This document shows, piece by piece, positions 4,173-21,773 of a stretch of DNA of 23,891 nucleotides. A program made the position numbers and the translations under genes. Below the pieces are notes generated by a model. It was given only the letters and a program-made list of their open reading frames with translations, had not been told where the DNA came from and ran no database searches. Every line of letters begins with the position of its first letter. The first letter of the stretch is position 1. Origin of the DNA: a virus; IMG/VR virus record IMGVR_UViG_3300032213_000123, positions 1-23,891 of that record; one strand, written 5' to 3'.

Positions 4173-4183
4173 GATTAACCTTT
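4173..4183 (-). promoter_or_regulatory. Ribosome binding site cassette AAAGGTTAATC
   Basis: The exact 11 bases AAAGGTTAATC directly precede the ATG at 4172. The same 11 bases precede the tape measure start at 12731, and a one-base variant precedes the first capsid gene. The AAAGG core is the Shine-Dalgarno element. Confidence 0.75.
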
Positions 4184-7100
4184 ATGCTGTTGCGTTATAA
4201 GAACCGGATATTACTATTTGTGTGCCACTAACAAAATTGCCAGCACAAAAATTTCCGCTAGAACCATTTGGGACATAAGATAATTGAACGCTTGTTCCAC
4301 TATCGGCCAATGCTTGATACCATCCACCAGATGATTGTGGGCTAATACTATTTACATATATGCTAAATGCAGTAGACGCATTACATGAAAATGGCAATGT
4401 AAATCTAGTAATTGATGCACTTGAACCGGCTGCGGAAATATTTACTATCAATGTAAATGTAACAACCCTACCAATTTTTGTATATTGCGCCGTAGAAGAA
4501 GAAACCGTACCAAAATTAGTAAATGTTGAAGTCCATGTTCCTTCAGCATAAGTATCCAAAGTATTTACATCAGTACTAGAAACTGGAGTGCTTGAAAATT
4601 TAATTTGCCCCGCAGTTAATGAAATATCATAACCTGATGATGCTAATGTTACCCCTGTTCCTGCTCCAATAACATTAAGAAATTGTGCCGCATATCCAAT
4701 GCTATTAGAGTTTGATCCATAAACTGCTGATTTACTTGTGGTATTTGAACTAGCAATAATGCCAAATTGCGCTGTTGATGTATCGTTAACTATTAATCCA
4801 ACAGTTCCCAAACCACTCCAACCTGTTCCACCTGTTCCGCGAAACCTTGCATTGCCGCTAATATCAATATTTGATGCGCCGGTAATATCGCCAGTAATAT
4901 TTAATGCGGTTCCACTCCATTGCATTGAATTAGTGCTATTGCCAATTGCAAGGCGAGGCGTTCCCGAATCATTACCTAAGAAAAAGCCAGCGGTTGTATC
5001 GGTATAAGATGTTTTGCCAGAATATAAATTTCCAGCAGTTGATATTTGTACTACACCAAGATTGGCAGAAATAGCTTCTAGCGAACCTACTTTAAGATTA
5101 GATAGGTAAGGCGTTTGCCAAAGAGTACTGCCGCCGGTTGTGTAAATGCCGTCCGATTGAAAAAGGGATTCATTTACAGACAATGTTGGAGGCGAGGCTT
5201 GCCATGTTATTCCAGACACTCCAAAATGTAATCCAGTATCAGGATAAGTTGTACCGCCGGAAGTTGTATCTGTTCCTGTAAATGTTGTGCCTGATGTGGC
5301 TTTACCATACATAAGACGGGCATTGTTACCTTGTGGGCCAATACTTCCATCCAAACGATAACCAACCGTATTAAGTTGTGAATTGCTCCAATTGGTTGTG
5401 CTTGTTGTGGCAGTCGCAGTATCGGTAACAATTACATTCAATTGATAAAGTGTATATCCGCTTCCAGGGGCGGCAGGAGCCGCAGCAGTCCATCCCGATG
5501 GATATGCACTAACCGCACCTGTACTCCATGTATAGGTAAATGATTGCGTTGGGATTGAGGGAGCCGATGTAAGCCATTGATATGAACTTACGGTAATGGA
5601 TTTTGTTCCGCTTGCGCCGGTAGCACCTGTAGCACCTGTAGCGCCATTTGAACCAAACCCGCCAACATACAAGACAGTAGTTGAACTCCATGTAACTGTG
5701 CTTGTGCTTGTGGTTAATTGATCTGAATATCGCTGATCTATTTCATAAAGATTTTGTCCAGCCGAACCCGCGCCTGGTGATTGGCTCCAACCATTTAATG
5801 TGGCCGGATTCGTGAATGCGCCGGTTGCCCATGTATAGGTAGAAGTCCCTGATGGATAAGTTGTTGGAAGCGTAGAACTCCATTGGAATAGACTTAACAA
5901 TGCCGTGCGTGTTCCATTAGTTCCAGCAGTGCCTGTTGCGCCATTTTGAGCAATAGATGTGATGGATGCGCCAGCCCATGCTACACTAGTAGTGGCCGTA
6001 CCCGCAAAGGCGGTAATGCCTTGTCCAGCTTGCCAAAGCTGATAATTAGCCGTGCCAGGATTAGCAGGGATAGTTACACTCCACCCAGCCCCGCCTGTGT
6101 ATCCAGAATTGGTGGCCGTTGCCCATGTATAGGTAGAGTTACCTGTGGGACTAGATGGCGTTGTTAGCGCCCATTGGTACAAATAAACTTGTGCGGTTTG
6201 CGATCCAACCGTTCCAGTAGGTATCCAAGTAAATGAACTGCTTGTTCCTGTAATGGAACTTTGTCCAATTTCATTTTCTACCATAGCACCAAAATAATAG
6301 GTGTTTGCTGGTAATTGATTATTTGGAAATGTTAATGTTGTGCTATTAGCCAATGCACCATTTGTAGGCGCATAGGATTTATATAAAACACTCCAATCAC
6401 TAATTGATGGCGTTGCAACTGTTGTATAAAACGCCGTAACCGCTGTAACACGCCCAATTGCTGGTGTAGTTACTTGCACATTAAAAAATGGAATTGTTGC
6501 TGTTGGATTGGAATAAGAAACAACCGGAGGGCTTACTCCAGAAAAAAACTGCACCGATGCAAGATTGCTATTTGGTGTTGGTGTAAATGCGGTAATTGAA
6601 CCGTTGTCGTAAACGGCAGCGTTGTATTCATTCAAATCCAAAGATGCGCCAAGATTGCCATCAGGCAAAGACACCTCGCTTACTTTCATTACTCGGAATA
6701 ATTTGTTATCCCAACCATAAGAACTATTTGTCAATGTAACCACATCGCCGGCATCTACTTGGATGGCGGGATAGGCGGCAGAAATGGTTACCAGCAAATC
6801 CTCACGCGCTTGCTCTAACATCCGGTTCGCAAGATATGTTGCTTGAACCGAATGGTTTACCAAATCAAGACTGCATGAATATTTATTTATTGGTTCATTG
6901 GCATATAGAAGTCCAGATGGTGTTTCAAGATAAACAACATCACGCTGATCCCGATTTAATTTATTGGGAAAACTTGACTCTACTTGATTAATGGAATTAG
7001 AAATATCTAACAATGATGTTTTAATTTCACCAATAACATTGGTATCATCAAATGCAAATGTAGAACTTGCATCACGATTAATAACAACTGTCCATTTTCC

Positions 7101-8405
7101 GGTAGCGGCATTGTATTGATTCCAACTATCGCAAGCGGCCATGATGCGATCAATATTAGACAAAACGTTTTGTCCTGTATCCAATACACCATTGATACGA
7201 TACCTTTGTATGTTTGCCGTGCCACCCGTACTTGGGGTGTATGGAATCAAAGATTCGGAATAAGTATTTAATGCTATGGCAGATGAGTAATCAACTATCG
7301 TAGATAAAATTGCTGTACCAGTACCAGAACCAACTCCAGTAGCAACAAACCATACGCCTACAGAATTGCTAATTGCACCAATTGTTGTAAAACTTGTTGT
7401 ACCAAGACTTGCAATTTTATAAGTTTCACCAACCACAAAAGAACCCGCATTAGTGGTAGGCATAGATGTGTTTAACATCCCGCCGCCATACGTTTCATTG
7501 CTTATGTAGTCAAACCAAACATCACCAGGCTTTGCCACATAGGTGTTATTTAAGGCATGGCCCACACGGAATGTAATTGGCTGGAGTTGTGTTGTTCCTG
7601 CTTCTTGAGAATAAAACAATTTAACAATTGCAAACGCCAATCCATTCATTTGGCGTGTTCCTGTCCACGCATTTGCAGCCGCAACCGGACTACCACCTGG
7701 TGATGCAGTTCCAATCACGGTATCGGGCGAATACCAATTAACACTAGTAATTACTCCATCATCGGTTGATGTGTAAAAGCCAATATAAAGCTGTCCGCTA
7801 ATTTTTGTGTCTACATTGCCGGCACTATCTGTCAGGCTAATTACTTTTGATCTATCGGTTGCATCAAATTCAATGACGCGATCACCATAGTACATACTTC
7901 CTTTTGATGCGTTTCCAGTTCCCGATCCGGTGCCGGTAGCAACAAACCATGTACCAACAGTATTAGATGATGCGCCAATTAATGTAAAGTTTGTTGTTCC
8001 AACTGATTCAATTTTGTACCTTGTATTAATCACAAAGTCGCCAGCGTTTATTACTTCAATAGGATAAAAAGTAAATTGCCCATTAGGGCTAATGCTAGAA
8101 ACCGCTAGTACATAGTACATACACTTTTGATCTACCGATAAAACGGCATCCACAAAAGTGCCACCCATATACGCATCGCCATAAACAATTGGAATGCTAT
8201 TTGTAGTGGCCGGTGGAACTTGTTGTCTTACGCCATTATCAACGGGAGTATTAGCGTTTTGATCTTGGGAAAATACACGCGCAACAATTGCCGATACTAC
8301 AAAATTTATAGCAAAAGTAGCCGCAGCATATCCGGTTGCCCCTAATGCTGCGCCAGCTAATACTGCGTCCCCAAAAACTGCTGCAAGAATAAGTGATGCT
8401 GGCAT
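4182..8405 (-). CDS. Tail tip hub / host-specificity protein (lambda J-like) with receptor-binding C-terminus
   Basis: A 1407-residue protein, longer than lambda J (about 1130). Residues 1-45 are hydrophobic and Ala-rich, as in many such hub proteins, followed by a P..T.NSIPIVYG segment. Residues about 200-600 hold a tail-tip hub region, including RYRINGVLDTGQNVLSNIDR and an Asp-Gly-Asn-rich part. About 620-735 looks like a fibronectin-III-type sandwich (NTYYFGAMVENEIGQSS). Three tandem YQW/YTW repeats follow (736-1016), each ending in a short collagen-like linker. A gpJ-like distal stretch comes next (LKVGSLEAISANLG; 1100-1190). The last 120 residues (EGTWTSTFTNFG, QYTKIGRVVTF) look like a receptor-binding tip. 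Two copies of a 45-residue insertion lie at 121-165 and 321-365. The start is one base after the GNAT stop. It presumably closes the tail and recognises the host. Confidence 0.85.
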   Translation of the reverse strand: MPASLILAAVFGDAVLAGAALGATGYAAATFAINFVVSAIVARVFSQDQNANTPVDNGVRQQVPPATTNSIPIVYGDAYMGGTFVDAVLSVDQKCMYYVLAVSSISPNGQFTFYPIEVINAGDFVINTRYKIESVGTTNFTLIGASSNTVGTWFVATGTGSGTGNASKGSMYYGDRVIEFDATDRSKVISLTDSAGNVDTKISGQLYIGFYTSTDDGVITSVNWYSPDTVIGTASPGGSPVAAANAWTGTRQMNGLAFAIVKLFYSQEAGTTQLQPITFRVGHALNNTYVAKPGDVWFDYISNETYGGGMLNTSMPTTNAGSFVVGETYKIASLGTTSFTTIGAISNSVGVWFVATGVGSGTGTAILSTIVDYSSAIALNTYSESLIPYTPSTGGTANIQRYRINGVLDTGQNVLSNIDRIMAACDSWNQYNAATGKWTVVINRDASSTFAFDDTNVIGEIKTSLLDISNSINQVESSFPNKLNRDQRDVVYLETPSGLLYANEPINKYSCSLDLVNHSVQATYLANRMLEQAREDLLVTISAAYPAIQVDAGDVVTLTNSSYGWDNKLFRVMKVSEVSLPDGNLGASLDLNEYNAAVYDNGSITAFTPTPNSNLASVQFFSGVSPPVVSYSNPTATIPFFNVQVTTPAIGRVTAVTAFYTTVATPSISDWSVLYKSYAPTNGALANSTTLTFPNNQLPANTYYFGAMVENEIGQSSITGTSSSFTWIPTGTVGSQTAQVYLYQWALTTPSSPTGNSTYTWATATNSGYTGGAGWSVTIPANPGTANYQLWQAGQGITAFAGTATTSVAWAGASITSIAQNGATGTAGTNGTRTALLSLFQWSSTLPTTYPSGTSTYTWATGAFTNPATLNGWSQSPGAGSAGQNLYEIDQRYSDQLTTSTSTVTWSSTTVLYVGGFGSNGATGATGATGASGTKSITVSSYQWLTSAPSIPTQSFTYTWSTGAVSAYPSGWTAAAPAAPGSGYTLYQLNVIVTDTATATTSTTNWSNSQLNTVGYRLDGSIGPQGNNARLMYGKATSGTTFTGTDTTSGGTTYPDTGLHFGVSGITWQASPPTLSVNESLFQSDGIYTTGGSTLWQTPYLSNLKVGSLEAISANLGVVQISTAGNLYSGKTSYTDTTAGFFLGNDSGTPRLAIGNSTNSMQWSGTALNITGDITGASNIDISGNARFRGTGGTGWSGLGTVGLIVNDTSTAQFGIIASSNTTSKSAVYGSNSNSIGYAAQFLNVIGAGTGVTLASSGYDISLTAGQIKFSSTPVSSTDVNTLDTYAEGTWTSTFTNFGTVSSSTAQYTKIGRVVTFTLIVNISAAGSSASITRFTLPFSCNASTAFSIYVNSISPQSSGGWYQALADSGTSVQLSYVPNGSSGNFCAGNFVSGTQIVISGSYNATA
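5358..6200 (-). repeat. Three tandem ~95-residue YQW/YTW repeats in the tail hub
   Basis: Residues 736-1016 of the hub contain three units. Each starts with a hydrophobic strand ending in YQW or FQW (742-745, 839-842, 942-944), then a Pro-rich stretch, then STYTWATG or FTYTWSTG, GW, a Pro/Gly-rich part, Y.L or L.EI, and a Thr/Ser run ending in W. Collagen-like linkers (NGATGTAGTNG, NGATGATGATGASG, GSIGPQG) follow each unit. Confidence 0.8.
7311..7445 (-). repeat. GTT-FT-IG insertion module, copy 2 in tail hub
   Basis: Hub residues 321-365, containing GETYKIASLGTTSFTTIGA and VWFVATGVGSGTGTA. It corresponds segment by segment to residues 121-165. The two copies start exactly 200 residues apart and look like the same small beta domain inserted twice. 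Confidence 0.82.
7911..8045 (-). repeat. GTT-FT-IG insertion module, copy 1 in tail hub
   Basis: Hub residues 121-165, containing NTRYKIESVGTTNFTLIGA and TWFVATGTGSGTGNA. It interrupts the N-terminal hub region, splitting an EVIN..MYYGDRVIEF stretch. The second copy is at 7311-7445. Confidence 0.82.
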
Positions 8406-8406
8406 T

Positions 8407-8856
8407 TTATTGTTCTCTAAAAAAGGTTGCTTCCATTAGCTTGTATCCGCGCTTTGTGTAATCAATAAATGGGGAGTTTGCCAGCACAGAAGTACAAGCA
8501 AAAGTCACCCTGCCATCATTAATCATTTCTTGCGCCCTCTTGTCAAATTCTTTCCATAGCCTACCGCCAACAGTGCTTTCCCGATGTTCCGGCTTTACCC
8601 ACCATGCAATCTCATGCAACTCTATAACACTAGGACACCAGAAGTTTTGAATAACCATTGCCGCTAGAAATCCACGATTTTCATTATCAATCAGTACAAA
8701 CCCTTTTCCGGCCATCATTGTTATTATCAATTGAGCAACATGGCTTTCGTTGTGGGCTTGCTTTTGTCGTATGGCTTCAATAGGTGCTTGCGCTGAATAC
8801 TCCCGCATCATCTCTATCAAAACTGGCATATCGTATTTTGTCGCCTGTCTTATCAT
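8407..8856 (-). CDS. GNAT-family N-acetyltransferase in the tail module
   Basis: The start is ATG 8856 (MIRQATKYDMPVLIEMM), one base after the TAG of the upstream gene and behind an AAAGGA Shine-Dalgarno. A longer open frame reaching 8997 is only overlap with that gene. The product is 149 residues, normal for a GNAT domain. It shows the N-terminal IRQATKYD strand-helix, a GFVLIDN..GFLAAMVIQ central beta hairpin, the ELHEIAWWVKPEHRES strand 4 and RESTVGGRLW as the acetyl-CoA pyrophosphate loop (motif A, normally Q/RxxGxG/A), then FACTSVL and YTKRGYKLMEATF at the end. These enzymes move an acetyl group from acetyl-CoA to an amine on a protein or small molecule. The substrate is unknown. Its place between tail-tip genes and the hub suggests action on a virion or host protein late in infection. 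Confidence 0.82.
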   Translation of the reverse strand: MIRQATKYDMPVLIEMMREYSAQAPIEAIRQKQAHNESHVAQLIITMMAGKGFVLIDNENRGFLAAMVIQNFWCPSVIELHEIAWWVKPEHRESTVGGRLWKEFDKRAQEMINDGRVTFACTSVLANSPFIDYTKRGYKLMEATFFREQ

Positions 8857-8857
8857 G

Positions 8858-9541
8858 CTATCCTTTGAATGTTTTAACCATTGGCTCAGTAGATATATTT
8901 GTTCCACCAGAACCATGCCCAACAGCACTTGGTGTATTTGTTGTTGATTGGCTTGATTGAATAGGTGGCGCACCAAAGTCAAAGTAAGTAGAAGCAATGA
9001 TTGGAACCCGATTCATAGATGTATCGTTAGGATAAATAAAGTTCCATGCTTTGGGCGTAGTCTTAATGCCTTGTATTCGATTTTCAAGGATGGTGCGGAA
9101 GCTGGCGCAGCTAATGCCTACGGTGGCTATCCTTACGCGCATTTGATCGTCAAACTGCTCTGTAATGGATGCGTTGGACACAATGCCTGTGTATCGCTTA
9201 AAGAACTGCTGACTAGGCGTTGTAATGATTTGATTCTGGCTATCCAAGAACCCGCGCCATACATCAATGTTAGAACCCTTGATGTTGGCCGCCAAGACTG
9301 TTGCCACGTTAGAACCGTCCACGCCGGTAAGCTGAATCGCCAAGTCGGTAGATGTAGCCTTGATGTTGCGATCAATCGGGGATATGGACAGCAGACTACC
9401 AAGATTGGTGAACGTCATTCCATTGACAGTGATGGCCGATGCCGCATTACAAAAGTAATAAGTATCAGTTGTGGTAGTCAACCGGATAAATTCTGCCTGT
9501 ACGATTGATGGGCTCGACAGAGCCGTCATTGTGGTACTCAT
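8858..9541 (-). CDS. Tail tip / baseplate hub-associated protein (lambda L or DUF2163-like)
   Basis: A 227-residue protein whose ATG overlaps the preceding stop (ATGA). The N-terminal half follows the pattern of tail-tip proteins upstream of J-like hubs: IRLTTTTDTYYFCNA, then SISPIDRNIKATSTDLAIQL, GVDGSN, NIDVWRGFLDS, and a YTGIVSNASITEQ strand. These features match minor tail proteins that form the ring between tail tube and hub. The C-terminal 60 residues are Ser/Thr/Gly-rich and look disordered (PPIQSSQSTTNTPSAVGHGS). It ends KTFKG one base before the acetyltransferase. In lambda, L carries an iron-sulphur cluster; here only two Cys residues (YYFCNA and GISCASF) are visible, so that feature is not supported. 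Family assignment is moderate; the tail-tip role follows from order. Confidence 0.65.
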   Translation of the reverse strand: MSTTMTALSSPSIVQAEFIRLTTTTDTYYFCNAASAITVNGMTFTNLGSLLSISPIDRNIKATSTDLAIQLTGVDGSNVATVLAANIKGSNIDVWRGFLDSQNQIITTPSQQFFKRYTGIVSNASITEQFDDQMRVRIATVGISCASFRTILENRIQGIKTTPKAWNFIYPNDTSMNRVPIIASTYFDFGAPPIQSSQSTTNTPSAVGHGSGGTNISTEPMVKTFKG

Positions 9542-12731: not shown

Positions 12732-12742
12732 GATTAACCTTT
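12732..12742 (-). promoter_or_regulatory. Ribosome binding site cassette AAAGGTTAATC (tape measure)
   Basis: The 11 bases directly before the tape measure ATG are identical to those before the small gene at 4172. It includes the stop of the preceding gene, so ribosomes finishing that gene can restart here. Confidence 0.75.
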
Positions 12743-13255
12743 CTTGGCGGCTTTGCGAGCCACTTCTTCAATGGCAAATTGTAAATACGTTCCAAGCAAA
12801 GTTACCACTTCGCCAACATTTTGTTCTAATGCTGGACGCAAAAAAGGATGTTGTGGGGTGCTTGCTGTGCCAAATTCTTGAGCAAGTGCTACTGGATGAC
12901 GGTTGCGCCATACTTTTTGGAATACGCCGCGCTTGTTTAAAACATGGGTTGCAACTGAATCATCGCGCAAACTACTAGTAGAAACCCTAGCCATAAAGGT
13001 TTCGCCTTCAACGTAATATTTGCTTCGGCGATCACCAGAATTAGGCCGATGCACTTTCATGTACATCCGATCCGCAAGTTGTCCAGTGTCTCTTGGAGCA
13101 TTGGCTTTGGCGGCTTCCAAGACGGGAGCAAAAGCTACTTGAAGCGCATTTTTCCAAATGCGATCAGTTTTGGCTTTGCCTATTTCTTCCGCCATTTCAT
13201 CCATTGCGGCAAATAAAGCATCAAACCCTTCAACTTGGAACTGTTCTGTCGCCAT
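12734..13255 (-). CDS. HK97 gp10-like tail completion / neck protein
   Basis: A 173-residue protein matching the HK97 gp10-like pattern: GFDALFAAMDEMAEEIGKAK, then ALQVAFAPVLEAAKANAPRDTGQL (the NAPRDTG.L signature), a variable middle, and AQEFGTASTPQHPFLRPAL (the E.GT...P..PF.RPA signature). These proteins usually act at the tail end of the neck and are normally encoded between the head-tail adaptor and the tail terminator. Here the gene lies between the tail chaperone and the tape measure, which is out of the usual order. It starts at ATG 13255 behind GGAG and overlaps the end of the frameshift gene by 26 bases. Confidence 0.85.
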   Translation of the reverse strand: MATEQFQVEGFDALFAAMDEMAEEIGKAKTDRIWKNALQVAFAPVLEAAKANAPRDTGQLADRMYMKVHRPNSGDRRSKYYVEGETFMARVSTSSLRDDSVATHVLNKRGVFQKVWRNRHPVALAQEFGTASTPQHPFLRPALEQNVGEVVTLLGTYLQFAIEEVARKAAKKG

Positions 13256-13568
13256 TTATTTTCTCCATGCTAAAGCCTGGTGCTTGCATCATAAATGAAA
13301 GCAACGCATTACTTATCATGTCTTGTTTTGGCAACTCCAAATCTGGGTTCTTTTCGTATTCTACAACCCAAGGAAAGATGTTTTCCGATTTATATGCTGG
13401 CGCACCTGATGGGCGGATGTAATTAAACACCGCTGTGGTTAAAGGAGTTATGGCATCAAACGTCCCTTTATTGCCCAAAATTCCATCGGAAAACATTACA
13501 CAAATTTCTGTAAATGTTTCCTCATCTATTTTATCTATACTTTCCGCACTATGTCCATTAAAAATCAT
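13230..13568 (-). CDS. Tail assembly chaperone, frameshift-accessed part (lambda T-like)
   Basis: As a stand-alone ORF this starts at ATG 13568 and has 112 residues, but only a weak GGGC lies upstream. The same frame is open further up to 13604, exactly at the slippery end of the upstream gene. A -1 shift there joins residue N172 to LRKSIRSQTRAA and then MIFNGHSAES, with no stop between. The fusion would be about 296 residues, close to lambda gpGT (279). The sequence (EICVMFSDGILGNKG, PLTTAVFNYIRPSGAPAY, FPWVVEYEKNPDLELPK) is not recognised by itself. Its place just before the tape measure and the frame relationship identify it as the T-like part, which binds tail tube subunits and coats the tape measure during assembly. 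Confidence 0.78.
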   Translation of the reverse strand: MIFNGHSAESIDKIDEETFTEICVMFSDGILGNKGTFDAITPLTTAVFNYIRPSGAPAYKSENIFPWVVEYEKNPDLELPKQDMISNALLSFMMQAPGFSMEKINGDRTVPS

Positions 13569-13600
13569 TGCTGCCCGTGTTTGGCTGCGGATTGATTTCC

Positions 13601-14119
13601 TTAGTTTTTTTTTGCTTCTTTGTAGTTTGGCCGGATTGCTTCATCAATCTTGCTAACAATTTCCTTAATGATAGATTCGGGGAATTCTTCCGCGATCTCA
13701 TCAAACGATTCTGTAATAGGTTCGCCAGTAGCTGATTGCAAAAGGGAAAAGTATTTCTCTACTTGCATTTGCCAGATTACAGTCATCTTGGCAAGGTTGC
13801 GAACCGAATTGCCATCAATCACCAAATCATTGTCGGTGATTTTGATTTTTTCTTTGTCGGCATTAAGGGCTTCTAAAAAACCTTCTTCCGCTTCATCCAA
13901 AGTTTTACGCAATGGGGCGGCAAGATTTTCATAAACGACATTGACGCGATCCGCATCTGGATCGGAAATTGTGGCCGTGATTGCTTCCATTTCCCGCTTT
14001 ACAGGAATGCGAACCTTTAAGTCAAACTCAATGTCATTAAGTTTTACATAAATGGTTTTAAATCGGGCGGCAGCGCGAATGGCCTCATAGTCCGCACCAA
14101 GTTTATTTGAAATGCTCAT
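13601..14119 (-). CDS. Tail assembly chaperone, short form (lambda G-like)
   Basis: A 172-residue, mostly helical and acidic protein (MSISNKLGADYEAIRAAA, VYENLAAPLRKTLDEAEEGF, FDEIAEEFPESIIKEIV) ending KEAKKN. It lies between the tail tube genes and the tape measure, as tail assembly chaperones do. Its last codons GCA AAA AAA AAC TAA hold the slippery heptamer A AAA AAC immediately before the stop. Normal termination gives this short form; slipping gives the long form with the next ORF. In lambda the G:GT ratio matters for tail assembly. A REMEAITATISDP.ADRVN region fits chaperone families found in HK97-like phages, but I rely mainly on position and frameshift. Confidence 0.8.
   Translation of the reverse strand: MSISNKLGADYEAIRAAARFKTIYVKLNDIEFDLKVRIPVKREMEAITATISDPDADRVNVVYENLAAPLRKTLDEAEEGFLEALNADKEKIKITDNDLVIDGNSVRNLAKMTVIWQMQVEKYFSLLQSATGEPITESFDEIAEEFPESIIKEIVSKIDEAIRPNYKEAKKN
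13604..13610 (-). promoter_or_regulatory. Programmed -1 frameshift slippery site A AAA AAC
   Basis: In the frame of the upstream gene the codons read GCA AAA AAA AAC TAA. The heptamer A AAA AAC is in the correct X XXY YYZ phase, and the nine-A run also gives A AAA AAA. After a -1 shift the next codons are CTA AGG AAA TCA ATC, then nothing but sense codons to the in-frame ATG at 13568 and on to the stop at 13230. I see no clear stimulatory pseudoknot by eye. Confidence 0.85.
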
Positions 14120-14344: not shown

Positions 14345-14563
14345 TTATTCCTCGGAGGGTGGTGGAGTGTATCGTGTAGGGGCTGTATAAGGGTTGTGTT
14401 TTGCAAGAACCCGCAAAGCAACTCCCTCTGCCGAGTCAGACTCAGTAGAGGAAAGTGCTTGTGCGACTTCCGCAGCGTCTACTACCAAACCTCGGGCAAC
14501 AATGTCCAAGTCTTGATAAGTGCTGGTTAGCACCTCCAGCGCGGCGGTAAGTTGTTCAGACAT
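14345..14563 (-). CDS. Hypothetical small protein after the tail tube genes
   Basis: A 72-residue acidic protein (MSEQLTAALEVLTSTYQDLD). Its ATG at 14563 shares a base with the stop of the second tail tube gene (TAATG). The first 50 residues form helix-like segments with heptad spacing of hydrophobics. The end is Pro-rich (NPYTAPTRYTPPPSEE). No family is recognised. The tight coupling on both sides supports a real gene. Confidence 0.7.
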   Translation of the reverse strand: MSEQLTAALEVLTSTYQDLDIVARGLVVDAAEVAQALSSTESDSAEGVALRVLAKHNPYTAPTRYTPPPSEE

Positions 14564-15081
14564 TAGGTATTGCTCCAGCCGTACTGATTACCACGGGGAT
14601 GAACCGTAAACGTGCATTTAGCTTCTGCGCCAGGCGCAGCGTCAATTTGGAACTGCGATACACGGCCATTGAAGGCGTATGCAATCGTAGTAGTTCCGGC
14701 AACCGCAGCCACCACAAACGTGCGATCAATCACGCCGCTGTAGGCATCACCACGGATCAACAGAAGGCCGGCATCCGATGGATTCCATGCCGCAGTGATA
14801 GTCATGCTGGTGGGAGCCGATTGCGTTGGGATTTTGTCACTTTGACGCGATCCAGCAACCATGAAGGAGGCCACGGCATCATCTTGGCCGAAAGCGGGAA
14901 CCGCCTCAACGTTAAGCGCCGTACCTGCTGCGCCTGTACCGTTGGCCGTTGTGCCTACGATAGTTGCGACTTGGCCTGTCCACACTGCCAAGTTTGCGGT
15001 GGAAAATGCCGTGGGGGATGCGCCTGTTTGCATCCACATCGAGGCTGAAAAGCCTGGTAGAACTACTGCTGGTGCTGCCAT
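14563..15081 (-). CDS. Major tail tube protein, second paralogue
   Basis: A 172-residue protein starting MAAPAVVLPGFSASMWMQ behind AAGGAG. From AFGQDDAV onward it closely matches its upstream neighbour: in the 42 residues to NPSDA only three differ, and in the 31 from GRVSQFQIDAAPGAE to YGW four differ. The N-terminal 60 residues are much more different and include a Gly/Thr/Ala insertion (TTANGTGAAGTAL). Size, position after the tail completion protein and abundance-type RBS fit a tail tube subunit. It may be a second tube protein, a tube-end variant, or a subunit with a decorative N-terminal loop. Confidence 0.83.
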   Translation of the reverse strand: MAAPAVVLPGFSASMWMQTGASPTAFSTANLAVWTGQVATIVGTTANGTGAAGTALNVEAVPAFGQDDAVASFMVAGSRQSDKIPTQSAPTSMTITAAWNPSDAGLLLIRGDAYSGVIDRTFVVAAVAGTTTIAYAFNGRVSQFQIDAAPGAEAKCTFTVHPRGNQYGWSNT

Positions 15082-15095
15082 GATGTTGCTCCTTA

Positions 15096-15593
15096 TTAAG
15101 CGTTATTGCACCAACCGTACAGGTTGCCGCGAGGATGGATAGTGAAATTGCATTTTGATTCAGCGCCAGGGGCCGCATCAATTTGGAATTGGGATACACG
15201 GCCAACAAAAGAGTAATACACAATGTTTGTACCATCGGTAGCCGCAATCACAAAAGTACGATCCACCGTACCGTTGTAAGCATCGGTGCGGAGCAAAGTA
15301 TTGATAATTGCATCACTAGGATTCCAAGCGGCGGTAATCGTCATAGATGTTGGGGCAGATTGGCTAGGAATCTTGTCCGATTGACGCGAACCGGCCACAG
15401 TGAACGATGAGACTGCATCGTCCTGGCCAAAAGCCGGCACTGCCTCAATATTCATCAAATTGCCAGTTACCGCAATAGCTGCCACATTTGATAGCGTAGA
15501 CAATTGAGCAAGCGTCAATACGGTAGGAGTAGTGGCGGGTTGTGCGTACATTGTGGCGCTAAAGCCAGGTAGTACTTTATTGGGTAAAGCCAT
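15096..15593 (-). CDS. Major tail tube protein, first paralogue
   Basis: A 165-residue protein starting MALPNKVLPGFSATMYAQ at ATG 15593, behind a GAAGGA Shine-Dalgarno. It has the SFTVAGSRQSDKIPSQSAP and MTITAAWNPSDA segments, then a variable hairpin region, and the GRVSQFQIDAAPGAE and FTIHPRGNLYGW ending shared with the next gene. The family is that of siphovirus tail tube subunits, which stack as hexameric rings around the tape measure; the call rests on size, position and the ensuing chaperone and tape measure genes. The 14-base gap to its paralogue suggests co-expression. The gap of 31 bases upstream holds only the RBS. Confidence 0.83.
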   Translation of the reverse strand: MALPNKVLPGFSATMYAQPATTPTVLTLAQLSTLSNVAAIAVTGNLMNIEAVPAFGQDDAVSSFTVAGSRQSDKIPSQSAPTSMTITAAWNPSDAIINTLLRTDAYNGTVDRTFVIAATDGTNIVYYSFVGRVSQFQIDAAPGAESKCNFTIHPRGNLYGWCNNA

Positions 15594-16382: not shown

Positions 16383-17054
16383 TTACATCACCAATGGTTT
16401 GTAATTTCGCAGTAAGGTAGCAACGCCAAATGGGATTTCTCGAATTGGTGTATCTACAGTATTGCTACGGTTGTTGTACAAGTGAGTAAGCAGTAACAGT
16501 CCAGCTTGTTTAATTACCGGATAAGCCGAAATCGGGTTAGCCACGGTGGAATACTCAATCACGATTGGGGCCGTCATCACCGAATTTATTGATGTCGGCA
16601 GACTGTTTACAATTACTTTGTTCCCCGAGGCATCATAGTAATAATTGGAACTTGCAATCGTCACCAAATCAGGCGGGAAGTTGTCGTTCCAGTATTTCAG
16701 CGAATTAACCGTAATGCCGGCCTGTCCACTATTGATGTTTTGGCTTACCTCGGGCAAGTCAAAGCAAATAGGCGAGGAAACTAGACTTTCAATGCCGTAC
16801 CACACTCGGTACGTCAGGCTGAAAATAGACAATCCTAGATAGTCCTCAATTGCCTGACGGGTAGCCAGTTCCAACCCTTGCAGGTAGCTGTCTTGGCTTT
16901 CATCGCCGAACAGGTTTAATTGTTGGGTGATTTCTTCCAGTGTCAACCATGCCGTCAAATTGTCGCGGTTGATTTGCTCAACCTTGACGTAATTAAACGG
17001 GTTGCGTGTGACTGCCCCGTAGGGCACTCCAACCATGACGGTATCTGCTGGCAT
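16383..17054 (-). CDS. Head-tail connector (HK97 gp6-like)
   Basis: A 223-residue protein. It starts at ATG 17054, one base after the stop of the second capsid gene. LTLEEITQQLNLFGDESQDSY followed by a helix with ATRQAIEDYLG is the typical N-terminal pattern of gp6-like connectors. The C-terminal IKQAGLLLLTHLYNNRSNT and IPFGVATLLRNYKPLVM match the ending that these proteins share. Twelve or thirteen copies form a ring under the portal. The central part (SGQAGITVNSLKYWNDNFPP) is the beta region usually found in the family's larger members. Confidence 0.87.
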   Translation of the reverse strand: MPADTVMVGVPYGAVTRNPFNYVKVEQINRDNLTAWLTLEEITQQLNLFGDESQDSYLQGLELATRQAIEDYLGLSIFSLTYRVWYGIESLVSSPICFDLPEVSQNINSGQAGITVNSLKYWNDNFPPDLVTIASSNYYYDASGNKVIVNSLPTSINSVMTAPIVIEYSTVANPISAYPVIKQAGLLLLTHLYNNRSNTVDTPIREIPFGVATLLRNYKPLVM

Positions 17055-17055
17055 A

Positions 17056-18084
17056 TTAAACGCCCACTAAACGAATACCAGCAAATGGATTACGAACGGT
17101 ACTAGCAAGACGTTTTTCCGCATACAGGTTTATGAAACCAGGCGTTGTTTGATCGAATGCTTGCACCGTCATTTCTTCAATGTCAGCAATCGTTACAAAG
17201 TTAGGCCAGTTAGCCAAATAGATGCTAAAGTTTCCAGCGCCCACCAGTTGCATATAGGGATTAGGGATCACAGGGAAACCAAATATATAAGTTACTGCGC
17301 CACCATCGCCATCACCAACTTCAGGGAATTGCTTAATTGCAGCGCCGCCCAAGTTGCGTAGATTGTGGATTGTCTGCGGGTGCATCATCCATGCAGTACC
17401 AGGCAACGTCCAATATTGGGCAGGGAACAACCGAGCCATATCAGTGATGTCACCATACGCAATAGCCGCACCCGCTTGGCTTACGGTTGCAATGCTATGG
17501 ATACCATTAGTGATTGCCGTGCCACTAGAGCCAAATGCTGACGCGCTGGCAGTCGTGTACATATTCAACCCACGCAAACCGCTTGTAGCGCCGTATGCGG
17601 TGGTTGTAGAGCCAGCCTGATCGTTGTTTAGAATCATAGATGCCGCTTCAACAGCGCCGAACTCTTGCATCAAATCTTGAACAAGAGTTTCATCCAAATA
17701 ATTTACATCTGTCATTACCGCAGTACGAATCGGCAGTTGTGCCGTAATCACGCGAGTAGGCAATTGCCAAATAGATGTGTCGGTATCGGGCGTTCCACTA
17801 TCAGCGGTGAACGTATATCCCCAAGGGTTTGTTTGGTTTGTGCTGTTACCAACTTTGGCAACAAACTGCACAGAACTTTGTCCAGCGCGAAAAACTTGTC
17901 GCGCTGCTTGTCGAATTGGGTTTGCAAAACGCAATGCTGCGAATGCGTCATCAAATAAAGTGCGTCCACCCTTGTTATCACCAGAACCTGTAAGGCTTGA
18001 TGCTTCTTTCAAGTCAATGGTTACTTTGCCACCCTCATTGATAGTTTGCTTAATGCCCGTAAGGATTTTTTCGGTAATAGTCAT
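17056..18084 (-). CDS. Second major capsid protein paralogue (HK97 fold), without N-terminal coiled coil
   Basis: I choose ATG 18084 (MTITEKILTGIKQ), giving 342 residues. A longer frame back to 18141 would translate through the terminator hairpin and give the unlikely leader MLPWWGLRPPP. The protein is a clear paralogue of the gene before it. Residues 27-64 (EASSLTGSGDNKGGRT to ARQV) match 24 of 38 positions of the first copy, and the end (QTTPGFINLYAEKRLASTV) matches 16 of 28 from QT.PG to AG.R. TSIWQL, PIRTA, EAASMILNNDQ and PAQYWT are shared. It has no N-terminal scaffold-like coiled coil and starts about 26 residues before the region where the mature form of the first protein is expected to begin. 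It could be a minor shell subunit (for example at vertices) or a second hexamer subunit. Confidence 0.85.
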   Translation of the reverse strand: MTITEKILTGIKQTINEGGKVTIDLKEASSLTGSGDNKGGRTLFDDAFAALRFANPIRQAARQVFRAGQSSVQFVAKVGNSTNQTNPWGYTFTADSGTPDTDTSIWQLPTRVITAQLPIRTAVMTDVNYLDETLVQDLMQEFGAVEAASMILNNDQAGSTTTAYGATSGLRGLNMYTTASASAFGSSGTAITNGIHSIATVSQAGAAIAYGDITDMARLFPAQYWTLPGTAWMMHPQTIHNLRNLGGAAIKQFPEVGDGDGGAVTYIFGFPVIPNPYMQLVGAGNFSIYLANWPNFVTIADIEEMTVQAFDQTTPGFINLYAEKRLASTVRNPFAGIRLVGV

Positions 18085-18104
18085 GGTGATACTTTCGGAT
18101 TGAG

Positions 18105-18131
18105 AAAAAGGCGGGGGCCGCAGCCCCCACC
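18105..18131 (-). terminator. Intrinsic terminator between the two capsid genes
   Basis: On the minus strand GGTGGGGGC pairs with GCCCCCGCC (nine pairs, one G-U) around a TGCG loop, and is directly followed by TTTTT. It begins ten bases after the stop of the first capsid gene and ends about 20 bases before the ATG of the second. It probably lowers transcription of genes downstream of the first capsid gene or protects the 3' end of its mRNA. Confidence 0.88.
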
Positions 18132-18141
18132 AAGGCAACAA

Positions 18142-19485
18142 TTAGGTTGCAGTTCCGGTAGAACGATAGCGCACACCAGCGTTCGGATCACGAACCGATG
18201 TAGCCAAACGCTTCTCGCCAAAGAACGTGATGTAGCCTGGCAACGTTTGATCGTAGCGGCGCATAACCATGTTCAGACGATCAACGGTTGTGTGAAAACG
18301 GCTCCAATCAGCAAAGTACATTGGGTACAAGCTGTTAGTGCCGGCAGAACCAGTAGTAGTCTGGCTAGGAGTGTCCAGATACTTGTTCATCACCACATCA
18401 AAGCCCAGCAGTTGGCCGATGATACCGTCAGGATTCAGAGATTCAACAGAGTTGAAAATCGGACGGCCATTGGTATCTTGCAAGCCACGGATTGCCTGTG
18501 CCAAGATGGGGTTAACCATAAACTTGGCATTGGAAGTCCAATATTGCTGTGGCAGTGCATAGATCAAGTTGATAACGTCTTTATAGGCAATGGCGTTTGC
18601 ACCAACCGTATTAGCGTTAGAAGTCAACTGATCGTAGGTTGCCAAGCTATGCAAGCCGGAAGTAGAACCAGTACCGCTAGTACCAAATGCAGCAACAGAA
18701 GATGTGCCACCAGCATAGGAACTATTAGAACCAGCATACTGATCCAAACCACGCAAACCATTAGAACCACCGTAAGGCAACGATGTTGCGCCTTGATCGT
18801 TATTTTGGATCATGGAAAGGGCTTCTGCTTGAGCAAACTCAACCAGCATATCGTCAACCACATTGGCTTCCAAACCATCAATGTCGTCCAAAGCCGCAGT
18901 ACGGATAGGAAACTGGACATTCAAGTCTTGCAGAACCAATTGCCAAATGGTGGTGTCTTCAGTAGTGGCAGAGCCATTGTTCTGAATACCATATCCCCAG
19001 GCAGCGCCAGCGTTGCCTACTTTTACGCGAAACTGATAGGAAGAACCATCAGTAGCAACGGTGCGAGTCAGGCCACGCAAGGGATTAGCCAAACGCAGAG
19101 CAACAAACGTAGGATCGTAAGCAGTACGGCCACCTTTGCCATCACCACCGCCGGTAAGGGCCGAGGCTTCGCGCAGATACGCATCGTATTGGCTTTCATC
19201 AGCAAACATCTTCAGTTCTTTTTCTACACGGTTGTTACCTTTGTAAAACTGAGTCAGTTGTTCGCGCACATTACGGTTGACATCACCACGCACGGTTTTG
19301 GCCGGTGCTTGGATGATTGCGGGTGCTTGCACAGAAGCAACTTTAGCTTCCAGGGCAGCAATTTTCTCTTGCATTTCTACCTTTGCGGCTTCAACAGCAG
19401 CGATAGATTTTGCTTCAGTGGCGCTGATCTTTTCGGCTTGAGCCGCTTCGATTGCGTCCAGTTTTTCAATGATTTCTTTAGACAT
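18142..19485 (-). CDS. Major capsid protein (HK97 fold), first paralogue with N-terminal coiled coil
   Basis: A 447-residue protein. Residues 1-52 are an Ala/Glu/Lys-rich coiled coil (delta-domain-like scaffold), followed by a linker with PAKTVRGDVNRNVREQL. The main fold starts near 105 (EASALTGGGDGKGGRT). Conserved stretches are TTIWQLVLQDLNVQFPIRTA, SMIQNNDQ, LPQQYWTSNAKFMVNP, GFDVVMNKYL and the C-terminal TFFGEKRLATSVRDP. The gene lies directly after the protease and starts with an AAAGG site, as HK97 MCPs do. The protease presumably removes residues up to somewhere between 60 and 105. The protein forms the icosahedral shell. The following terminator suggests high, separate expression. Confidence 0.92.
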   Translation of the reverse strand: MSKEIIEKLDAIEAAQAEKISATEAKSIAAVEAAKVEMQEKIAALEAKVASVQAPAIIQAPAKTVRGDVNRNVREQLTQFYKGNNRVEKELKMFADESQYDAYLREASALTGGGDGKGGRTAYDPTFVALRLANPLRGLTRTVATDGSSYQFRVKVGNAGAAWGYGIQNNGSATTEDTTIWQLVLQDLNVQFPIRTAALDDIDGLEANVVDDMLVEFAQAEALSMIQNNDQGATSLPYGGSNGLRGLDQYAGSNSSYAGGTSSVAAFGTSGTGSTSGLHSLATYDQLTSNANTVGANAIAYKDVINLIYALPQQYWTSNAKFMVNPILAQAIRGLQDTNGRPIFNSVESLNPDGIIGQLLGFDVVMNKYLDTPSQTTTGSAGTNSLYPMYFADWSRFHTTVDRLNMVMRRYDQTLPGYITFFGEKRLATSVRDPNAGVRYRSTGTAT

Positions 19486-19496
19486 AATTAACCTTT
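19486..19496 (-). promoter_or_regulatory. Ribosome binding site AAAGGTTAATT (first capsid gene)
   Basis: Variant of the AAAGGTTAATC cassette used elsewhere in the window, with one base changed (the final C to T). It overlaps the last codons and stop of the protease gene, coupling the two. Confidence 0.7.
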
Positions 19497-20261
19497 CAGT
19501 CGTTTATCGAGAGTTTTAAGAAGTTCGCGCTGCTCAAGAGCCGCGAGAATCTCCGCTTTGGTTGCCTCCGCATCAGAGTCACTCAGAATTGGTGCAGTTT
19601 CAACAGGCACTACAACAGCGTCACGCTGCTCAAGCACCTTTTTGAAAGTAGATGCAGCGGCAACCGCATCACTCTTGGATAGTCCTGCATCACGCAAGGC
19701 TTGCTCCAAAATCTTTAGATCGGCAGAGCCATCGGGCCGGAAAAACTCCAGCTTGTTGACGTTTGCCTCGGGGTTGTTGGGATACATCACGATAGATACC
19801 TCACGCAATCCACCTTTGGTGATTTGGAAATATGCTTCATCGGATTGATCGGGTTCGCCATCGGCATTAACCATTTGATAATCTTCCGCATAAGCGCCAA
19901 CAGAAACGCCGCCAAACATTTGGGGCGACTCTTGCATAATGTTGTAAATATCTTTTCCAGCGCTGGTATTTGTGTATATACGTCCTTGCGCCGTCATGCA
20001 GTTATCATCCATTTCAAAGGATGTCCACTCACCCACCGGCATTGAATCCGATTGGTGATTTAGAAACATAGGAAGGGGTTTGCCGCCTTTAGCAAAGGAT
20101 TCGGCCCAATCCATAAAGCCCTCGGGCTGATAATTGAAACGCCGCCCGTCTGCGCCTTCTCGAGCGCCCCAGGTGGTTACGGTGGCTTCAATCTTGCCGG
20201 TATTGCCCTGTTTCTCTACGATTAAACGGGCTTCGCACAGCATATTTAGGTTTTGAGTCAT
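19488..20261 (-). CDS. Prohead maturation protease (HK97-type, S78 family)
   Basis: A 257-residue protein starting at ATG 20261 behind GAGG (GAGGTAATCA). The first 170 residues are the protease domain: TTWGAREGADGRRF, the catalytic His in FLNHQSD (H69), the nucleophile Ser in FGGVSVGAY (S120), and the third residue probably Glu in LREVSIVMY (E154). In the S78 family a Ser-His pair with an acidic or His third residue cuts the capsid scaffold. The C-terminal 85 residues (DLKILEQALRDAGLS, AEILAALEQRELLKTL) are helical and may be a scaffold-like extension. The gene sits between portal and capsid as usual. It acts inside the prohead and cleaves the first capsid protein's N-terminal region. Confidence 0.9.
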   Translation of the reverse strand: MTQNLNMLCEARLIVEKQGNTGKIEATVTTWGAREGADGRRFNYQPEGFMDWAESFAKGGKPLPMFLNHQSDSMPVGEWTSFEMDDNCMTAQGRIYTNTSAGKDIYNIMQESPQMFGGVSVGAYAEDYQMVNADGEPDQSDEAYFQITKGGLREVSIVMYPNNPEANVNKLEFFRPDGSADLKILEQALRDAGLSKSDAVAAASTFKKVLEQRDAVVVPVETAPILSDSDAEATKAEILAALEQRELLKTLDKRLKG

Positions 20262-20385
20262 TGATTACCTCATCGACTTTTGTTAAATCAATGTCGTATA
20301 TTGTAGGTAATTCTAGCGCACTTACCCGCTTTTTGGGCTTATTATACTTTTTCTGTAGTGCAAGCAATTGGGCTAAGTCTATCAT
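20188..20385 (-). CDS. Hypothetical small overlapping protein between portal and protease
   Basis: A 65-residue, basic ORF (MIDLAQLLALQKKYNKPKKR) that starts within the portal stop (ATGA) and runs 74 bases into the protease in another frame. Without it, a 120-base gap would remain in an otherwise packed operon. The first 40 residues look protein-like; the end (SPFNRRETGQYRQD) is read across the protease start and may be only overlap. I recognise no family. It could be a real accessory protein or just a translational bridge that carries ribosomes to the protease. Confidence 0.5.
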   Translation of the reverse strand: MIDLAQLLALQKKYNKPKKRVSALELPTIYDIDLTKVDEVINDSKPKYAVRSPFNRRETGQYRQD

Positions 20386-21773
20386 TTCTTGCCAATATTC
20401 ATCTTTTTTCTTTGATTACCGCCGCCGCCGCCGGTATCTTGGGGGGAAGTTCCCGCAATAGGTTCCACTGGATTAGTATCCTTCAAATCGTCCGCGCCGT
20501 CAATTTGGGGCATTCCAAGGTACTCTCGGGCCTCATTTTGAGTCATTATCCCTGCGGTAACCCCTGCGGTAGCAAAATTCATTTGATCCAGTGGAGCGCC
20601 TTTTAGGAAGTTGCAAGTATCAAACTCAATCGCCAAGTTAGGATACCCTTGAAACAAATGTTGCTTTAATTTTTGCTGAACATTAACCAAAGTTGGGTAC
20701 ATGGTGGATTTGTAAAACTCATCCAACAAGGTTTGGGTGTTATTAAACTTACTTTCCCCAACGCCAATCATTTGATGCGGTACGCCAAATAAAGCGCAAA
20801 TTCGCTTCATAGTTTGATCTTTTAGCTTGGCAGCGTCCGCATCTTGCAGGGTAAGCATATTCAAAGGCGTATATTTCATGCCCTGATCTAGCAACATACC
20901 CTGCCCAGGCTTACTAGGATCGGATTGGCGGCTTCCCACCATTGAACTCCATGCCTCTTTTAGACGGGCGGCAATTTCTTTGTATTTGGCATCTGCAATT
21001 ACTTGCTCGGTGGTAAACATACCCGAGGGCTTTGCGCCGTTCTGCATTACATAGTTGGCATACAAGTCAATGTCCTGATCCAGCGACACCAACTCAGCGG
21101 CCAAGATGCCTTTGTTAAAACCAGCAGAACCTTGCCAGTTCATATCCTTGCAGTGCATCACTTGGTGGGACGCAAGCGGCTCATCCCGCGAGAACCCATA
21201 GGATGGTGTAGACAGGCGGTAAGAAGGATAGCGGGTAGGCGTGATGGTTACGGCAATAAGGGTAGAGTCCAGAAGATACATCTCCAACGGGGTATCCATG
21301 CTGTTCTTCTGATCTTTGCGCCACCATAGGGTAAACGCTTCGCCCGAAAGTTCGTACCACATGAGCCATTGATACCAAAACTCATAGGTAGATTGGAAGT
21401 TATTTGGTTGTGCCAATAAATTAGCAACTTGCTTGGCTTTTGCTTTATCTCGCGCACCCACCAATTCAGATTTGATTGCATCGACATAAGTACCATCGTC
21501 CGATTTGCTTACTACCTTAATTGGAAGTTGGGATAGCGCCCGTGCTTTAATGGCAACGCAAGACATAATGGTGGAATTGCGCGTCAACAGCGACATATCC
21601 ACCGGCCTACCAGCGTTATTAGTCGAACTGGTGGTGACGTACAGAATCTGAGTATTTACATTCGGATTCTTGTTGTCGCCTTGGTAAACAATGTTATTAC
21701 CGAGCGCAGTTTGCCCGAAAAGCGTATTGCTTTCCTTAACGTCTTTTCGTTTGAAAATATCAAGAAGTGCCAT
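20382..21773 (-). CDS. Portal protein (HK97 family)
   Basis: A 463-residue protein in the size range of HK97-type portals. It begins MALLDIFKRKDVKES, with SLLTRNSTIMSCVAIKARAL and SQLPIKVVSK, then AQPNNFQSTYEFWYQWLMWY, ELSGEAFTLWWRK, LDQDIDLYANYVMQNGAKPS and the family's KRICALFGVPHQMIGVGE plus YKSTMYPTLVNVQQKL segments, and NEAREYLGMPQIDGADDL near the end. Twelve copies form the ring at one vertex through which DNA enters and exits, and to which the terminase docks. The end (DTGGGGGNQRKKMNIGKK) is Gly-rich and basic. It starts 25 bases after the large terminase stop with a GGAG site, and overlaps the next ORF by four bases. Confidence 0.95.
   Translation of the reverse strand: MALLDIFKRKDVKESNTLFGQTALGNNIVYQGDNKNPNVNTQILYVTTSSTNNAGRPVDMSLLTRNSTIMSCVAIKARALSQLPIKVVSKSDDGTYVDAIKSELVGARDKAKAKQVANLLAQPNNFQSTYEFWYQWLMWYELSGEAFTLWWRKDQKNSMDTPLEMYLLDSTLIAVTITPTRYPSYRLSTPSYGFSRDEPLASHQVMHCKDMNWQGSAGFNKGILAAELVSLDQDIDLYANYVMQNGAKPSGMFTTEQVIADAKYKEIAARLKEAWSSMVGSRQSDPSKPGQGMLLDQGMKYTPLNMLTLQDADAAKLKDQTMKRICALFGVPHQMIGVGESKFNNTQTLLDEFYKSTMYPTLVNVQQKLKQHLFQGYPNLAIEFDTCNFLKGAPLDQMNFATAGVTAGIMTQNEAREYLGMPQIDGADDLKDTNPVEPIAGTSPQDTGGGGGNQRKKMNIGKK

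Follow-up and report, generated by a model that had tools for sequence, protein, structure and literature searches.

The capsid locus

The window, which is the whole 23,891-base virus record analysed here, encodes on its minus strand the packaging, head and tail functions of a siphovirus. Read along that strand the genes are the small and large terminase subunits, the portal protein (20382..21773; PF04860, 206.6 bits), a prohead serine protease of the Peptidase_S78 type (19488..20261; PF04586, 37.3 bits), MCP1, MCP2, the head-tail adaptor directly after MCP2 (16383..17054; PF05135, PHROG_40), head completion, tail proteins and the tape measure. MCP1 (18142..19485, minus strand) encodes a major capsid protein of 447 residues with the HK97 fold, and MCP2 (17056..18084, minus strand) a capsid paralogue of 342 residues without a long delta domain. 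The phage is a siphovirus of about 35-40 kb and belongs to a family of small lake phages. Two large tail-region proteins (4182-8405, 1407 residues, and 3-2645, at least 881 residues, both minus strand) have no PHROG match, and an acetyltransferase-like gene (8407-8997, minus strand; PHROG_1249) lies among the tail genes.

Relatives were collected in searches with MCP1 alone, MCP2 alone, the MCP1 of a cultured isolate and a broad MCP1 alignment. Taking the best 80 matches of each scan, these gave at least about 290 loci. Most come from viral contigs and a few from metagenome-assembled genomes; the only member of the set that is not metagenomic is an isolate, Methylophilaceae phage P19250A. One contig (L197, IMGVR_UViG_3300022748_000017) is 75,987 bases long compared with 34-41 kb for the others, and is either a joined or duplicated assembly or includes flanking DNA. 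In two others a second, inverted MCP1 at the contig end is probably an assembly artefact (L125:4-1353, minus strand, and 7998-9347, plus strand; L065:5387-5479, minus strand).

MCP1 and MCP2 are paralogues of the HK97 capsid family

Over 343 columns MCP1 and MCP2 share 41% identity (E 2e-76), and profiles of the two families align over 315 columns with a probability of 100%. Both proteins score above the cutoff of 27.5 bits for TIGR01554 (major_cap_HK97), MCP1 with 110.3 bits and MCP2 with 56.9 bits. PF05065 recognizes MCP1 (100.8 bits, cutoff 24.2); the MCP2 of the window has no Pfam match, and 35 of 45 MCP2 relatives are matched by PF05065. These results bear out the first-pass annotation, which had described the two genes as adjacent capsid paralogues. 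The 24 of 38 identities that it counted around the EAS.LTG.GD motif, common to both proteins, hold in the alignment of MCP1 with MCP2, as does the C-terminal block that it gave as 16 of 28, where we find about 16-17 of 28-29.

The AF2 models of both proteins, built from input alignments that excluded the sequence of P19250A, are weak (pLDDT 50.8 for MCP2 and 40.3 for MCP1). The placement of domains therefore rests on homology, and the MCP2 model served for a fold search only. In that Foldseek search the leading matches, from a model with a pLDDT of 50.8, are all HK97-fold shells, for example those of the RcGTA particle and the HK97 and T5 capsids. About 104 residues precede the EAS.LTG.GD motif in MCP1, and residues 1-104 constitute the delta (scaffold) domain. 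The most confident part of the failed MCP1 model is a helix spanning residues 2-50 (pLDDT ~71-78), which supports the N-terminal coiled coil noted at first reading.

In MCP2 only ~25 residues precede the EAS motif. The gene starts with the ATG at 18084, and 92 of 92 distinct relatives begin MCP2 with an ATG at the same place. An upstream TTG start, which would extend the gene to 18141, was rejected, as translation would run through the strong terminator hairpin described below and the ATG is universal in the relatives. The TIGR01554 alignment to MCP2 begins at residue 50 with model position 127; combined with residue 104, the start of the mature chain in HK97, this would place the mature start near residue 27 of MCP2, at the EAS motif. 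The leader in front of it (residues 1-25, 18010..18084, minus strand) has a predicted helix at residues 3-17 in the weak AF2 model, and in the alignments it is found in every relative with a fairly conserved sequence. It may be a short propeptide or a targeting peptide. The earlier suggestion that MCP2 is already mature is right only in rough outline: the long delta domain is missing and the motif lies close to the start, but since a leader of ~25 residues is retained, MCP2 is not simply born mature and does not begin exactly at the mature position.

An intrinsic terminator separates the two genes

An intrinsic terminator lies between MCP1 and MCP2 (18110..18131, minus strand). Its 9-bp stem and 4-base loop, GGTGGGGGC-TGCG-GCCCCCGCC, are followed by TTTTTCT at 18131-18110, with a folding z of -3.3. 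Defined as a stem of at least 6 pairs with at least 4 G-C pairs and at least 5 T in 8 bases, such a structure is present in 162 of 189 distinct spacers, compared with a mean of 8.3 and a maximum of 13 in dinucleotide shuffles. Stem sequences differ widely among groups (GGTGGGGGC, GGAGGGG, GCCCCTACCAG and CCCCGATGG), so it is the structure that is kept and not the sequence.

The terminator puts MCP2 on what is presumably the low-expression side of the operon, and a lower dose of MCP2 would fit a minor shell protein. In HK97 a putative terminator is annotated directly after gp5. This weakens the view that the terminator serves MCP2 specially, and, because its position is the same, MCP2 occupies the place of the low-dose head genes. 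In the simplest history the duplicate was inserted downstream of a terminator that already followed the capsid gene, among low-copy connector genes. The hairpin may merely be the usual terminator after a major capsid gene, and alone it is no proof of a vertex role.

The pair is fixed, old and constrained

Among the matches listed, MCP2 follows MCP1 in all 282 loci with enough downstream sequence, in constant order and on the same strand. MCP1 is followed directly by MCP2 in 279 cases, in 3 an insertion intervenes or the frame limits are shifted, and 11 MCP1 genes lie at a contig end. The first reading had advised looking for the pair in related phages, and none of these testable loci lacks it. 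No single-copy relative came up among the best 80 matches of each of three viral scans with MCP1 as seed, of which one was centred on a distant member; deeper single-copy relatives may lie beyond these matches. Searching 369 genomes of the class with profiles recovered only the known pair. In the same genomes PF05065 gave 27 matches, no two of them adjacent, which is an approximate base rate given that this model misses some MCP2 proteins. No description of the pair was found in the literature searched, which covered few subscription journals.

In a tree of both families all MCP1 sequences form one clade and all MCP2 sequences the other, with 100/100 support and no bootstrap exception. This separation of the two copies places the duplication before the divergence of the group as a whole. 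In close pairs the median dN/dS is 0.073 for MCP2, and for MCP1 it is 0.097 in the mature part and 0.176 in the delta region; the MCP2 frame is broken in 1 of about 280 loci (L147). MCP2 is under purifying selection, and the earlier judgement that it is unlikely to be decaying is confirmed.

Two adjacent paralogues of the major tail protein (15096-15593 and 14563-15081, minus strand), 63% identical and both PHROG_158, are also present in the window, whose phage carries tandem duplicates of the main head subunit and of the main tail subunit alike. This tail pair served as an internal control. Its second copy is found in only 72 of 158 loci, which means that unneeded duplicates get lost in these phages and MCP2 does not.

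MCP2 is exchanged as a one-gene cassette

Between the window and a close relative (L082), 16 head and tail genes are 90-100% identical and MCP2 is 63% identical. At the DNA level MCP1 and the region upstream of it are 87-99% identical, MCP2 only 56-77%, and beyond it the adaptor is again at 89-99%. One breakpoint falls within the first codons of MCP2, or in other pairs somewhere in its first 35 codons, and the other at the MCP2 stop codon, which forms the 3' edge of the cassette. Swapped MCP2 alleles on near-identical backbones also occur in L092/L095, L096/L110, L036/L141, L013/L130 and others, and the reverse case, an MCP2 common to diverged backbones, in L045/L073 and L079/L117. We called two backbones near-identical when the median difference over the seven remaining head and tail genes was below 12%. 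Of 220 such pairs, 80 have MCP2 proteins more than 25% different; the corresponding counts are 0 of 192 for the portal, 0 of 212 for the protease, 0 of 210 for MCP1, 2 of 217 for the adaptor and 11 of 211 for the head-completion gene. The contrast is robust at all thresholds tried, and at least six backbone groups carry two or more MCP2 types. MCP2 has been exchanged repeatedly as a precise one-gene cassette.

Two other origins of the pattern were rejected. Chimeric assembly is contradicted by flanks that both match one backbone, by breakpoints at gene ends, by recurrence in at least six independent backbone groups and by the portal, protease and MCP1 genes, swapped in none of about 200 pairs. 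Rapid divergence in place of exchange is contradicted by silent sites, which differ by 0.53-0.71 in MCP2 against 0.14-0.32 in MCP1, and by foreign alleles that match the MCP2 of other backbones at 80-92%.

In three relatives, representing two lineages, an endonuclease gene is situated exactly between MCP1 and MCP2: an HNH gene (PF01844) at L229:2096-2422, another in the same place in L228, and a PHROG_314 homing endonuclease with a GIY-YIG-like start at L278:5932-6528. The Seg enzymes of T4 drive local gene conversion (PMC2988022), and by analogy homing endonuclease genes may have driven some of the MCP2 exchanges.

Elsewhere in the window, a three-gene block before the tape measure (12734-14119, minus strand), which includes a PHROG_5 tail completion/neck protein, is also exchanged among near-identical phages; in one relative (L002) it is 27-36% identical, compared with 97-100% in the genes on the MCP side.

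Variation within MCP2 is concentrated in two segments

Swapped alleles are 76-88% identical in the first 60 residues and 78-79% in the last 40. Mean identity drops to 22% at residues 201-220 and to 28% at residues 241-260, and in 214 distinct MCP2 sequences the entropy peaks at residues ~198-212 and 240-253. Hypervariable segment 1 (residues ~198-212; 17449..17493, minus strand) lies in the A-domain, before and at its first helix. Hypervariable segment 2 (residues ~240-253; 17326..17367, minus strand) was placed through an alignment of MCP1 with HK97 gp5 (residues ~288-300), which is weak but contains a clear motif, LKDNEGRYIF against LQDTNGRPIF. The equivalent of segment 2 in HK97 gp5 is a loop of the A-domain near the capsomer axis, and segment 2 of MCP2 would accordingly be expected near that axis. 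By homology, variation thus appears to peak in the A-domain, where capsomer centres lie.

Discussion

We propose that these phages build an HK97-type shell from two paralogues, and it is probable that the hexamers consist of MCP1, which supplies the delta scaffold as well, and that MCP2 is the minor protein, with the vertex pentamers as its most likely place. The first-pass annotation had suggested a shell of two protein types with only one supplying scaffold. Two functional, diverged proteins and a long delta domain confined to MCP1 support this; the division into vertex and face is the best fit, given the sites of variation together with the terminator.

In the proposed mechanism MCP1 would be the major subunit, whose delta domain acts as scaffold and is then presumably removed by the adjacent S78 protease. 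The terminator after MCP1 would let only part of transcription reach MCP2, and the resulting excess of MCP1 would suit a shell with few pentamers, about 360 copies to 55 if the shell is T=7, as we suppose. MCP2 would join the growing shell on the MCP1 scaffold and, like gp24 in T4, supply the pentamers of the eleven vertices not taken by the portal. The parts of MCP2 that would face neighbouring MCP1 hexamers, the N-arm, E-loop and P-domain, are fairly conserved. In a pure MCP2 pentamer the A-domain would touch only other MCP2 copies and the outside, and would be free to vary. Recombination between homologous flanks, MCP1/terminator on one side and the adaptor on the other, could then replace the whole of MCP2 and leave MCP1 unchanged, because the A-domain would contact only MCP2 and the outside. 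That alleles 37% different can work with the same MCP1 would be understandable if an MCP2-only pentamer keeps the A-domain off MCP1; this is an argument and not a proof. Most HK97-type phages of similar genome size use one protein for pentamers and hexamers. A special penton is thus not needed, which counts against placing MCP2 at the vertices. Should MCP2 be in close contact with MCP1, its free exchange while MCP1 stays constant would also be somewhat surprising.

The same facts can be read in other ways. MCP2 might be a minor subunit mixed into hexamers or confined to special places, for example round the portal or as a regulator of size or curvature, and not fill all pentamers. The retained fold and its E-loop and P-domain motifs would allow any lattice position, and a capsid homologue can steer head size, as Ccm of SaPIbov5 does (PMC8569155). 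In mixed capsomers, however, the A-domain of MCP2 would pack on the constant A-domain of MCP1, yet it is the most variable and most freely exchanged part of the protein. Random mixing would moreover need no separate conserved lineage, and we consider a mixed or special-place subunit unlikely. By family models MCP2 keeps a complete mature HK97 fold and might build an alternative shell of its own, a second particle type or size outside the normal virion. We hold this to be very improbable for a protein that lacks a delta domain, has no second portal or protease beside it and in every relative sits among the genes of the normal head operon.

Genes in conflict with the host typically show repeated replacement of alleles, and MCP2 could be a soluble mimic of the capsid, such as a decoy for capsid-sensing defences, that is exchanged for this reason. 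A decoy fits poorly with a gene that is strictly fixed, never lost, strongly constrained over most of its length and clustered with structural genes, and we give it little credence. That MCP2 in the window is below Pfam detection might point to a decaying or neutral duplicate, an explanation that we dismiss almost entirely: the unbroken pairing, the single disrupted copy, the low dN/dS and the deep reciprocal clades already refute it.

It is possible, though somewhat less likely than not, that in this abundant lineage of small aquatic siphophages the vertices are made of a dedicated paralogue acting as an exchangeable surface allele, swapped as tail fibres are in other phages, through which the head is diversified under selection from hosts, defences or the environment. 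Escape from capsid-sensing defences and selection at the level of the particle are candidate reasons for the many MCP2 alleles. Replacement of one shell gene and not of its neighbours in near-identical phages is unexpected for a lattice protein. Natural sets of phages that differ in essentially one capsid gene raise the question of what selects for head variety.

Comparison with known systems

The module resembles that of HK97 gp4/gp5 in the order of its portal, protease, delta-bearing capsid protein, terminator and adaptor. In HK97 a single capsid gene serves both pentamers and hexamers, whereas here a second gene stands between terminator and adaptor.

By analogy, the pair would work most like gp23/gp24 of T4 and like the phi12 capsid protein with Ccm of SaPIbov5, and it is a member of neither family. 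MCP1 and MCP2 are adjacent, diverged and conserved, as expected of a two-protein shell of the T4 kind. As with gp23 and gp24, the presumably minor paralogue is downstream and has the shorter N-terminal extension; the MCP2 leader of ~25 residues is comparable to the short propeptide of gp24. The T4 shell is matured by a protease, and so presumably is this one, judging from the adjacent S78 gene. No T4-type capsid model matched MCP1 or MCP2 (Pfam E up to 0.1, NCBIfam up to 0.01), the only matches being PF05065 and TIGR01554. T4 is a 169-kb prolate myovirus with a separate core, while the phage with MCP1 and MCP2 is a ~38-kb siphovirus with a built-in delta domain. In T4, gp24 pentamers stand beside gp23 hexamers (PMC3012670), so that the vertex role of gp24 is known, whereas that of MCP2 is predicted and MCP2 is swapped among near-identical phages. 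Like the endonuclease genes between MCP1 and MCP2 in L278 and L228/L229, a free-standing GIY-YIG endonuclease gene, segD, lies between T4 genes 23 and 24 (PMC2988022).

Ccm, a capsid-protein homologue, fills the pentamers among hexamers of the helper phi12 capsid protein, as seen by cryo-EM (PMC8569155). The two are 24% identical, compared with 41% for MCP1 and MCP2. Ccm comes from a parasitic island, carries an 87-residue delta domain and redirects capsid size, whereas MCP2 belongs to the phage's own head operon and has no long delta domain. MCP2 is not a satellite gene of the Ccm type found in PICIs: its locus has its own terminase, portal and protease wherever the contig reaches that far.

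HK97-fold vertex proteins are thus known in T4-like phages and in the parasite's Ccm. According to a 2026 review, separate penton and hexon genes are rare, and T4 has them in connection with the large size of its genome (PMC13185644). A capsid pair fixed in phages of ~38 kb, a quarter of the size of T4, would let one ask in a much smaller and simpler virus why a penton protein evolves. The cultured member, P19250A (KX815270, 38,749 bases), has the same pair in the same place, 61% (MCP1) and 54.5% (MCP2) identical to that of the window, and only one major tail protein. There MCP1 (4600-5988) is annotated as 'gene transfer agent capsid protein' and MCP2 (P19250A_0006; 6066-7124) as 'hypothetical protein', not named as a capsid paralogue. 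With this one cultured phage the idea of MCP2 as a vertex protein, familiar from gp24 and Ccm, becomes testable.
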